Position numbers and translations under genes: made by a program | DNA from: an uncultured Deinococcota bacterium | GTDB lineage: Bacteria > Deinococcota > Deinococci > Deinococcales > Trueperaceae | Reading direction: 5' to 3' | DNA length: 35,375 nt | Assembly: GCA_947311535.1 (NCBI GenBank) | Contig: CAMZLP010000190.1 | Location: 1-35,375, forward strand | Notes under the pieces: generated by a model | Seen by the model: the letters and a program-made list of their open reading frames with translations, nothing else | The model's database searches: none | What the model was told of the DNA's origin: nothing | Shown: in pieces, positions 14,708 to 18,743 of the stretch | How the letters are laid out: each line of letters opens with the position of its first letter | Position numbering within the stretch: the first letter of the stretch is position 1

Positions 14708-15766
14708 ATGGCAAAAGATTGGCGCAATACTTTAGTAAAAGAAGATACAAATTTACGTGAAGTAATGGCTACTATTGATGCTGCCGAATTGCAAGTTGCC
14801 TTGGTCGTTGATAAAAGCAATAAATTATTGGGTCTTATCACCGATGGTGATATAAGAAGGGCTATTTTACAGGGTAAATCTTTAGGAGCCAAAGCATTTG
14901 AATTTATGACTGTTAAGCCTAAAACGGCTTCTAAAAACACTGATTACAAAAGGCTCGAGCATATCCTAGAAAACAAGGATATCCACCACATTCCTATTGT
15001 TGATAAAGACGGAGTAGTTATAGATCTTATAACCAAGAGCTCTGGCAGGCTAAAACCAAATTATGACAACCAAGTATTTTTGATGGCTGGAGGATTAGGC
15101 TCGAGGCTAGGCGAATTAACCAAAGACATACCCAAGCCGCTTTTAAAAATTGGTGGTAAACCAATCTTAGAAACAATTATAGAAAGCTTTGTTGAACAGG
15201 GTTTTAGCAATATTAATTTAGCGGTAAATTATAAAAAAGAACAGATAAAAGATTATTTTAAAGATGGCTCAAAACTTGCTGCAAAAATAACATATATTAA
15301 CGAAAGCAAGCGCTTAGGAACTTGTGGTTCACTAAGCCTCTTAGAGCAAAAACCCAAACTGCCTTTTTTTGTTATGAATGCTGACCTACTTACAAAAACC
15401 GACTTTAAGGCTATCTTAGATTTCCATAGCAAGCGTAGCTCACTAGCTACTATGGCTTTAAGAAATTATGAAATCCAGATCCCCTATGGTGTTGTAGAAA
15501 GCGTTGCTGAAGAAGTTATGACCATACGAGAAAAACCCATTGAACAGTACTTTATTAATGCTGGCATCTATGTGCTCGAGCCTGACGCAATAGATTATAT
15601 TCCAAAAAACGAGTACTTCGATATGACCCAGTTATTTTCTCAACTTTTAGAATTTAAGCAAACTATTAACAGCTATCCAATTGACGGCTACTGGTTAGAT
15701 ATTGGCCATTTGAATGAGCTCGAGCAAGCCAATAGCGAATACAGCAAGCTATTCTCTAAAATCTAA
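14708..15766 (+). CDS. CBS-domain sugar nucleotidyltransferase (PtmE/LegF-pathway type)
   Basis: A 352-aa protein with two CBS repeats (about 1-120: REVMATIDAAELQVALVVDK, LLGLITDGDIRRAIL, HHIPIVDKDGVVIDLI) followed by an NTP-transferase domain (from about 122: FLMAGGLGSRLGELTKDIPKPLL). This layout is that of PtmE, which in Campylobacter makes GDP-glucosamine for legionaminic acid, and of related proteins beside neuB genes. That makes a GDP-linked legionaminic-type pathway attractive, but other hexose-1-phosphates are possible. The CBS pair may sense a nucleotide. The start follows AAGGAG in the end of neuD. Four CTCGAG palindromes lie in the gene. Confidence 0.84.
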   Translation: MAKDWRNTLVKEDTNLREVMATIDAAELQVALVVDKSNKLLGLITDGDIRRAILQGKSLGAKAFEFMTVKPKTASKNTDYKRLEHILENKDIHHIPIVDKDGVVIDLITKSSGRLKPNYDNQVFLMAGGLGSRLGELTKDIPKPLLKIGGKPILETIIESFVEQGFSNINLAVNYKKEQIKDYFKDGSKLAAKITYINESKRLGTCGSLSLLEQKPKLPFFVMNADLLTKTDFKAILDFHSKRSSLATMALRNYEIQIPYGVVESVAEEVMTIREKPIEQYFINAGIYVLEPDAIDYIPKNEYFDMTQLFSQLLEFKQTINSYPIDGYWLDIGHLNELEQANSEYSKLFSKI

Positions 15767-15767
15767 A

Positions 15768-17117
15768 ATGTCCGCAGCCCTTTATATAGTCCATGCCATT
15801 GATACCGAAGGCCCTCTTTATGAATCAATAGAGGCAACCTTTGAACGCTTAGAAAAAATCACTACTTTAAAACTAGAAGCCAGTAAAAGCAATTTGGAAA
15901 AGATAAAAAATAAAGAAATAAATTTAAACGGCAAAGAAGATTTGGCCGCTTTAATCACCTCTCCCCAATTATTAAACTACAACGATACTTGGGACAAAAT
16001 AGACGAAATGCTCAATGAACTCTTAAGCCCAGAGTACCGCAATAAATACGCTGATAAACTAGGCAATGGCTGGATTTACAGCTGGTTTATAGTTGATCAT
16101 ATTGGTTTTAAAACTAACCCACGCCGGCGCGATATCGGCTACCACAATATTTATGATCACTATAAATTTATTTTAAAAGAAACTAATTCACAGCAAGATG
16201 AAATCAACTGGCATTTTCACCCATCTTCAAGATATCAAGAAGCTCATATTTGTGCTACTAATTATTTAAATTCACCTCATTTATATGAAAGCCTTGCCCG
16301 AGGCATAATTGACCGCAGCTTTTTCCCTAGTACTTTTAGACCAGGCTTTCATGCCGAACGCCCTGATGCCCATTGGTTTTTAGAACAATGGATTCCTTTT
16401 GATTATGCTAACCAAGCCATAGCTGGCGAAGCCAATGACCCTAATCAAAACGATGTCTCCGCAGGTCGCTTGGGCGATTGGCGTAGGGCAGTTAGCGATT
16501 GGTCAGCATATAACCCCTCGCATGATGATTATCAAATTGCGGGTAATTGCAATCGCACAATTTTCCGCTGCTTAAATGTTGGCACAAGGTTTAAATTACT
16601 AGATGAAGCCGAAGTTAGGCAAGCTTTTGAACGCTCTCAGTCTGGCAAGCCAACTGTTTTAGCCTTTACCAATCATGATTTTAGAGACATGCGTAATGAT
16701 CTTGACTATGTCCACAAGCTAGTTAGCAAGGTTGCTCAAGATTATCCAGAAATAATCTGGCAACATGCCGGAGCCAAAGAAGCCGCCCAAAAGGTCTTAG
16801 GTTTAAAAAAACAAGACTTTAAACTCAGCACTAAAATTACCAAATTGACTGCTGGCTTACGTTTAGATGTAAAGGCAAATTTTGATAGCTTTGGCCCTCA
16901 ACCATTTTTGGCTATCAAAACCAAAGATAAACGCTATCTCACAGATAATTTTGACCTGCAAACCCCAAAACGCCACTGGACTTATATTTTTGATGAAGAT
17001 ACAATTTTAGCTGATTCCATAAACACAATCGGCATTGCCAGCAATGATCAAAATGGCAATACATTTGTTATAAACTTAAAACCAGATGGAAAAATCATTT
17101 CCCAAATAAGCCTATAA
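15768..17117 (+). CDS. NodB-like (polysaccharide-deacetylase-related) protein of glycan cluster
   Basis: A 449-aa protein starting at ATG 15768, one base after the previous stop; the longer frame from 15714 would overlap that gene by more than 50 bases. It has NodB-fold landmarks in order: HAIDTEGP (metal-binding aspartate near the N-terminus), INWHFHPSSRYQEAH, STFRPGFHAERPD (the arginine/proline motif) and AFTNHDFRDMRND near residue 300. This points to a metal-dependent carbohydrate esterase or a relative. The C-terminal 100 residues (from about KLSTKITKL) look like an added beta domain. I know such proteins mainly as hypotheticals in nonulosonate clusters, so a role in trimming or modifying the glycan is inference. 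No signal peptide is seen. Confidence 0.68.
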   Translation: MSAALYIVHAIDTEGPLYESIEATFERLEKITTLKLEASKSNLEKIKNKEINLNGKEDLAALITSPQLLNYNDTWDKIDEMLNELLSPEYRNKYADKLGNGWIYSWFIVDHIGFKTNPRRRDIGYHNIYDHYKFILKETNSQQDEINWHFHPSSRYQEAHICATNYLNSPHLYESLARGIIDRSFFPSTFRPGFHAERPDAHWFLEQWIPFDYANQAIAGEANDPNQNDVSAGRLGDWRRAVSDWSAYNPSHDDYQIAGNCNRTIFRCLNVGTRFKLLDEAEVRQAFERSQSGKPTVLAFTNHDFRDMRNDLDYVHKLVSKVAQDYPEIIWQHAGAKEAAQKVLGLKKQDFKLSTKITKLTAGLRLDVKANFDSFGPQPFLAIKTKDKRYLTDNFDLQTPKRHWTYIFDEDTILADSINTIGIASNDQNGNTFVINLKPDGKIISQISL

Positions 17118-17124
17118 TAAACTC

Positions 17125-17460
17125 ATGACCAAAATAAATTCAAATCAAAATCCCACCGTAGGGGTACCCCTTGTGGGTACCCAACTCAGCGCTAAACAAG
17201 CCTTAGTAAATAATAATCCCGAACCCACATTGGGTGAAATTATTGGTGCGTTTAAATCAATAACAACAAATAAATATACTAATGGAGTAAAACACTTCAA
17301 TTGGCCAGAATTTGATAGAAAATTCTGGCAACGCAATTTCTATGAGCCTATTATCCGCAATGACGATAATTTATTCAAAATATCAGAATATATCGAAACT
17401 AACCCATTAAACTGGGAACTAGATTCATTGCACCCCAATAACCCAAAGGTATCCCCGTGA
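17125..17460 (+). pseudogene. C-terminal fragment of a REP-associated (RAYT, IS200-like) transposase
   Basis: The 111-aa frame matches only the end of RAYT proteins: PTLGEIIGAFKSITTNKY, WPEFDRKFWQRNFYEPIIRN, IEYIETNPLNWELDSLHPNNP in pattern. The N-terminal HUH motif and catalytic tyrosine region are missing, so it cannot be an active transposase. Before the conserved part is an in-frame insert reading NPTVGVPLVGTQ, encoded by GGGGTACCCC (17161-17170) and GGGTACCC (17175-17182), a REP-like palindromic pair. It begins 8 bases after the NodB-like gene and overlaps the next start by four bases (GTGA), so it may still be translated as part of the operon. Confidence 0.72.
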
Positions 17461-18743
17461 AAAGAGAAACCCTAAAACAAATCGAAGAATATTTTGACCG
17501 CCTCTGGCCTATCCTTCGCTCAATAACTGGCGAGGGTGTGCGGCAAAGCCACAATATTTTAAGCGAAATCATTCCTTTAAAACGTTTTGAAATACCCACT
17601 GGCAGCAAGGTTTACGATTGGGAGATACCTAAAGAGTGGGCTGTGTCAGAGGCTTATGTAATAAGACCAGACGGCAAAAAGATTTTGGATATAAAAGATA
17701 ACAATCTTCATTTGTTAAATTACTCTATTCCCTTTCAAAGCACGGTTAGCTTAGAAGAATTAAACAAGCATCTCTATAGCTTGCCAGAGCAAGCTGACGC
17801 CATACCTTATGTAACAAGTTATTACAAAGAACGCTGGGGCTTTTGCTTGAGCGAAAACGAGCGAAAAAACTTAACTAAAGGTGACTACAAAGTAGTTATT
17901 GACAGCAAGCTTTTTACTGGCTCACTGACCATAGGCGAAGCCTTTTTGCAGGGTGAAAGTGACGAAGAAGTGTTGCTATCTAGCTATACTTGCCACCCAT
18001 CAATGGCAAATAACGAATTGTCTGGGCCACTAGTTTTAGCATTTTTATACCAAAGACTTGCCCAGCTTAAAAATAGAAGATTGAGCTACCGCTTTGTGCT
18101 ATTGCCTGAGACAATTGGGGCAATAGCCTATCTCAATATGCGGGCTGAGCATTTAAAAGAAAAACTAATAGCAGGCTATGTGGTTAGCTGCATTGGTGAC
18201 TCTGGTAATTTTACTTACAAGCGCTCACGGCAGCACAGCAGCCTAGCTGATAAAGCTGCTTTACATGTTTTGGCAAACTTAGACAAAAAAGCCAAGGTTA
18301 TCAACTTTTCACCGCTTGGTAGCGACGAGCGGCAATATTGCTCACCAGCTTTTGACTTACCAATGGGTTCACTAATGCGCACCATGTATGGCAAATTCCC
18401 AGAGTACCACACATCTTTAGATAATAAAGAGTTTATTTCTTTTATTGCTCTACAAGAATCTATCGACCTTTACTTTGAGGTTTTAATGACTTTGGATAAA
18501 AACCAAAAATATCTAAACCTACACCCACATGGTGAACCACGCTTAGATAAACGAGGGCTTTATGAAAGCATAGGGCACAGCAGCGTGCCTGAGTTAAGCA
18601 CTAAGGTACTTTGGCTACTCAATTATTCTGATGGCGAACATGATTTATTGGCTATTGCAGAGCTAAGTGGATATAGCGTGACAGAGCTTCATGAGATTGC
18701 CTTGATTTGTTTAGAAGTAGGACTAATTCAAGCTTTTAAGTAA
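17457..18743 (+). CDS. DUF4910 aminopeptidase-like protein
   Basis: A 428-aa protein of the DUF4910 family: YFDRLWPILRSITGEGVRQS at the N-terminus, RFEIPTGSKVYDWEIPKEW, LLSSYTCHPSMANNELSGPL, LLPETIGAIAYL, and SDERQYCSPAFDLPMGSLM. The central part is M28-peptidase-like, with H in CHPSMANNE, E in PETIG and D/E in GSDERQ as likely zinc ligands; the last 80 residues form a winged-helix-like domain (LLAIAELSGYSVTELHEIAL). The family is common in surface-polysaccharide clusters, but its reaction is not settled. It starts at GTG 17457. It is the last gene of the operon and converges on the DUF3885 gene three bases away. Confidence 0.87.
   Translation: MKRETLKQIEEYFDRLWPILRSITGEGVRQSHNILSEIIPLKRFEIPTGSKVYDWEIPKEWAVSEAYVIRPDGKKILDIKDNNLHLLNYSIPFQSTVSLEELNKHLYSLPEQADAIPYVTSYYKERWGFCLSENERKNLTKGDYKVVIDSKLFTGSLTIGEAFLQGESDEEVLLSSYTCHPSMANNELSGPLVLAFLYQRLAQLKNRRLSYRFVLLPETIGAIAYLNMRAEHLKEKLIAGYVVSCIGDSGNFTYKRSRQHSSLADKAALHVLANLDKKAKVINFSPLGSDERQYCSPAFDLPMGSLMRTMYGKFPEYHTSLDNKEFISFIALQESIDLYFEVLMTLDKNQKYLNLHPHGEPRLDKRGLYESIGHSSVPELSTKVLWLLNYSDGEHDLLAIAELSGYSVTELHEIALICLEVGLIQAFK

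Follow-up and report, generated by a model that had tools for sequence, protein, structure and literature searches.

The locus and its reading frames

The window, by which we mean the whole 35,375-nt stretch analyzed, comes from an uncultured Deinococcota bacterium of the Trueperaceae and holds an operon whose upstream genes are NeuB-, NeuD-, and PseF-like, pointing to a putative role in nonulosonic-acid synthesis. Within this operon an uninterrupted frame of 111 codons opens with an ATG 7 nt past the stop (17117) of a gene for a 467-residue protein, and its TGA (17458-17460) overlaps the GTG (17457-17459) of a DUF4910 gene as GTGA, an overlap that the earlier note had placed correctly; the GTG start is backed by homologs that align from residue 1 or 6. 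The frame resembles the tail of a RAYT, a REP-associated tyrosine transposase of the Y1/HUH family. The features relevant to the analysis are as follows.

15714-17117, plus strand: gene for a 467-residue protein without a Pfam family; 3' end complete, start suggested by homologs to lie near 15768
17125-17460, plus strand: 5'-truncated RAYT (TnpAREP) remnant of 111 residues, without the HUH half; homologous core at residues 34-104
17158-17182, plus strand: REP composed of GTAG foot, GGGTACCC stem, CTTGT loop, and GGGTACCC stem, coding for VGVPLVGT(Q) in the HUH-Tyr linker
17326-17331, plus strand: Trp-Gln pair W68 Q69, by spacing W94 Q95 of E. coli TnpAREP, at the start of the GTAG-contact region (numbering from the excerpted text of PMC6006769)
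17347-17349, plus strand: Pro75, at the position of the GTAG contact H101 of E. coli; Pro in 0 of 30 homologs
17389-17403, plus strand: Tyr motif YIETN, with Y89 and N93 at the positions, by spacing, of Y115 and N119 of E. coli TnpAREP
17445-17450, plus strand: AAAGGT, a weak Shine-Dalgarno-like site for the DUF4910 gene within the remnant's tail (duplex -3.9 kcal/mol)
17457-18743, plus strand: DUF4910/DUF2172/HTH_47 gene, its GTG start overlapping the TGA of the remnant

In profile searches the NCBIfam model REP_Tyr_transpos (NF047646) aligned to the fragment through profile positions 70-133 of 146 (E 3.6e-8; 33.4 bits, below the curated cut-off of 80) and Pfam Y1_Tnp (PF01797) through positions 56-120 of 121 (E 8e-4; 20 bits, below the cut-off of 23), both covering only the C-terminal half of the family. 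The frame opens downstream of the position of the HUH motif (H-hydrophobic-H), which is missing from the fragment; inspection of all three forward frames ahead of the ATG revealed no visible remnant of the HUH half, for which there is no room because the upstream 467-residue gene is complete. The C-terminal-only homology to the two profiles confirms an earlier assignment of this frame as a RAYT transposase tail and, judged by homology, the fragment is the C-terminal part of a RAYT whose N-terminal HUH half has been lost. With the HUH metal site lost, the fragment is not expected to cleave DNA. A search of PDB sequences gave no meaningful match to the fragment.

Elsewhere in the window, a 93-residue ORF at 1991-2272, which resembles an IS3-type OrfA, is apparently without an OrfB after it.

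The linker palindrome

The GTAG foot of the REP (17158-17161) abuts directly on a hairpin in which the two GGGTACCC stem segments (17162-17169 and 17175-17182) enclose the CTTGT loop (17170-17174). The stem is exact over its 8 bp and the GTA of the foot lies in codon phase 0, in keeping with the earlier description of an in-frame REP coding for VGVPLVGT, although the palindrome is larger than was then described. By DNA folding energy alone the element is unremarkable (z -1.6); what identifies it as a REP is its GTAG foot, together with a CTTGT loop and a linker position that homologs share. A further perfect stem of ~9-10 bp (CCAGAATTT..AAATTCTGG) occurs at 17304-17328 in the coding tail; stems of this kind start at 12 positions in the window versus 1.2 on average after block shuffling, and the homologs displayed contain no matching perfect stem.

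When 111 genomes of the order were searched for RAYTs, 22 gave matches. We assembled a homolog set of 30 frames (28 loci of other genomes, the full-length RAYT of the fragment's own genome, and one Aquiflexum RAYT), 29 of which have recognizable HUH and WQ motifs, and scored the intervening linker for a GTAG next to a perfect stem of at least 8 bp. Such a hairpin was present in the HUH-WQ linker of 27 of the 29 homologs and in none of 5800 shuffled linkers; 3 of the 29 carried one elsewhere in the open frame. Both hairpin orientations occurred in 22 of 29 linkers, with self-palindromic "double-foot" forms counted as both, and the plus-strand hairpins were largely in phase 0 (21/25). The stems vary from gene to gene yet stay complementary, and the CTTGT loop recurs in at least one REP of six homologs (L015-L019 and L035). 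Because homologs carry the hairpin in the same linker, with variable but complementary stems and a recurring loop, we take the linker REP to have been inherited with the transposase gene and not acquired by the fragment.

This trait of the lineage has already been reported. The portions of PMC6006769 available to us describe TnpAREP subclass 2.4, equated there with RAYT group 4 of Bertels et al., as having REPs inserted within tnpAREP genes, generally between HuH and Y, with the frame undisturbed. The fragment likewise has an in-frame REP with a GTAG foot between the HuH and Y positions, where 27 of the 29 homologs have theirs, together with a core Tyr motif and no C-terminal extension; unlike the subclass as described in those portions, it lacks the N-terminal HUH half and has a proline in place of the GTAG-contact His or Arg. 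In view of the homologs and of the published account, the in-frame REP pointed out in the earlier note carries no particular message about the fragment. The excerpts of PMC3733652 report REPs inside many other genes and offer a parallel in the Rickettsia palindromic elements, which are likewise palindromic repeats tolerated in frame in proteins, but which are different elements residing in unrelated host genes. A late event, in which the REP would have entered an already truncated fragment, is barely conceivable: we found no point in its support, the hairpin of intact homologs occupies this very site and is mostly in the same phase, and the genome offers no donor copy.

Provenance of the fragment

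The genome encodes one full-length RAYT (contig C70, 24119-24730; positions 1135-1746 of locus L002). Like the fragment, it belongs to the Y1 family and bears an in-frame GTAG hairpin in its linker; unlike the fragment, to which it is ~43% identical, it carries a different, double-foot REP, GTAGAGACGC..GCGTCTCTAC, coding for VETHGHASLR and represented by a resident population (17 sites at no more than three mismatches versus 1 in the control). The fragment REP is single-copy, with no other copy in its own genome when up to three mismatches were allowed, and a resident population of this REP as donor was rejected on this ground. Five other genomes of the order, all with RAYT matches, contain related REPs in abundance (9-45 copies). 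Given the different REP of the resident RAYT, the single copy of the fragment REP, and the related REPs in other genomes, we conclude that the fragment derives from a RAYT lineage other than that of the resident full-length gene. The tree agrees: the fragment falls within a group of 17 rows (support 86/99) to which the own-genome RAYT does not belong, with no exact sister singled out, and its end branch is the third-longest of 31.

Full-length RAYTs of the same order (L013-L040) include the best matches to the fragment, 51-56% identical over the core, and have the same linker REP, several with the CTTGT loop. They differ from it in that most are intact and many bear a second, inverted REP in the linker, and some of their genomes contain REP populations of up to 45 copies.

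Only one distant Bacteroidota RAYT was found among broader genome contigs, the three plasmid records matching the fragment were all below 60% identity, and viral contigs contained no exact copy of the fragment REP. Among the papers listed for truncated RAYTs in operons and for RAYT fragments, none but PMC6006769 bore on the matter. Contamination of the window contig was considered and rejected, with a GC content of 35% versus 35-40% and a tetranucleotide correlation of r 0.98 against a pool of 20 further contig stretches from that assembly.

Three further observations were made along the way. The assembly has ~36% GC versus 61-75% for the family-member loci seen (G004, G008, G025, and G033), an odd spread for one family. 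Contig C40 of the same genome (L001, 191-2218, minus strand) encodes a 675-residue Eco57I/N6_Mtase frame with an in-frame Y1_Tnp domain (residues 369-449, E 9.8e-11) just ahead of an NPPY stretch that is presumably motif IV. Among the plasmid matches, one from Monoglobus is likewise listed with both a methyltransferase and a transposase.

Conservation of the neighborhood and translational coupling

The gene for the 467-residue protein is present in 5 of the 111 genomes, its own included, and no other species of the window's genus is among the 111. Whole-genome searches of the four relatives that share this gene gave no RAYT match, and the fragment is absent from the operon stretches retrieved from them. 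The DUF4910 and 467-residue genes are divergent in G004 and G033 and convergent in G025, and so are not co-directional in three of the four relatives. In the fourth, G017, the upstream order matches that of the window (NeuD-like gene, CBS-nucleotidyltransferase gene, and a 467-residue gene ~68% identical); its contig ends 42 nt past the stop of the 467-residue gene and its DUF4910 gene is cut by another contig end. These contig ends make G017 unusable as an empty site.

This arrangement bears on the proposal that the fragment has been retained because ribosomes reinitiating after the upstream stop translate the tail and are fed through the TGA/GTG overlap to the DUF4910 start. The GTGA overlap, the 7-nt gap to the upstream stop, the open frame, and the location within the tail of the weak Shine-Dalgarno-like site for DUF4910 all speak for such coupling; in a control for that site, 25% of random sites reached -3 kcal/mol. 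The fragment ATG, however, has no Shine-Dalgarno match (+0.4 kcal/mol), short overlaps can arise by chance, and coupling of the two flanking genes is not a conserved need since the pair is not co-directional in G004, G033, and G025. We therefore regard retention for coupling as rather improbable.

Retained residues and codon use

YIETN aligned with the Tyr motif of all 30 homologs, with the metal-ligand Asn four residues on; the position N119 is taken from the excerpted text of PMC6006769, and Y115 follows from the spacing stated there. In the same numbering, the GTAG-contact region retains W, Q, E, and R; the Tyr and Asn are also kept, as are 12 of 15 near-invariant columns, a count shared by some intact homologs. 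The position of H101, by contrast, is R, H, S, T, or Y in all 30 homologs and Pro in the fragment.

The codon score of the fragment core exceeded those of all 500 shuffles, which makes it weakly host-like, and yet only 1 of 425 windows from neighboring genes scored as low. The tail of the intact own-genome RAYT also scores low (0.11), so the measure is not specific to decay; a low score is a sign of either decay or an atypical origin. At the 5% level the frame could have stayed open through 0.18-0.23 neutral substitutions per site, which makes its openness weak evidence for selection.

The retained contact-region residues and Tyr motif would suit a small protein that has been domesticated and has kept its binding to GTAG/REP single-stranded DNA or RNA. 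This possibility is extremely unlikely in view of the change of the H101 contact to Pro, the absence of the cognate REP from the rest of the genome, the poor codon score, and the finding that none of the five other genomes with a DUF4910 match has a RAYT match. Neither persistence for translational coupling nor a new role, the two explanations put forward in the earlier note, gains support from these data: the fragment lacks a Shine-Dalgarno sequence and is absent from four relatives, its flanking pair is unconserved, its DNA-contact position is changed, and its codon usage is poor.

A probable neutral relic

We consider it likely that the fragment is a 5'-truncated, probably neutral RAYT relic produced by ordinary decay. 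In the proposed sequence of events, a subclass-2.4-type RAYT with the REP already in frame in its HUH-Tyr linker would once have lain between the 467-residue and DUF4910 genes. A deletion with its breakpoint in the linker, immediately 5' of the REP, would then have taken the 5' part of the gene and with it the catalytic HUH motif. The remaining tail would happen to be open, from the ATG behind the upstream stop to a stop overlapping the DUF4910 GTG, and would most likely have no function of its own, serving at most as a translated spacer in the operon.

This reading is favored by the C-terminal-only homology, the linker REP as a family trait, the single REP copy, the absence of RAYTs from the four relatives, the missing Shine-Dalgarno sequence, the codon score, the proline at H101, the long branch, and the occurrence of other broken RAYTs in the order. 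The last comprise L017 and L023, which look broken, together with a G054 locus (contig C76) with an in-frame TGA. In L023 (G054, contig C18) the RAYT halves lie in one frame split by a stop, and in L017 (G068, contig C3) the N-terminal part and a PNYIHG motif lie in different frames. Counted against a relic are the intact 111-codon frame, a core codon score above 500 shuffles, and the near-invariant columns, of which 12 of 15 are kept; the precise TGA/GTG overlap and the DUF4910 Shine-Dalgarno-like site in the tail would also be in keeping with a retained coupling device. Ordinary neutral decay nevertheless explains everything seen.

For RNA structure the 336 nt of the fragment score z -4.7, and the relic could in principle have been co-opted as a translated leader in which the REP hairpin and the tail structure meter ribosomes reaching the overlapping GTG. 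We hold this to be very improbable; if true, a transposase tail would have become an expression regulator of an enzyme of the nonulosonate operon. As a probable neutral relic, the fragment is one more example of a RAYT with its halves separated at the REP-bearing linker, and it serves as a caution against taking an in-frame palindrome for a new event when it is an old, published trait of the transposase lineage.
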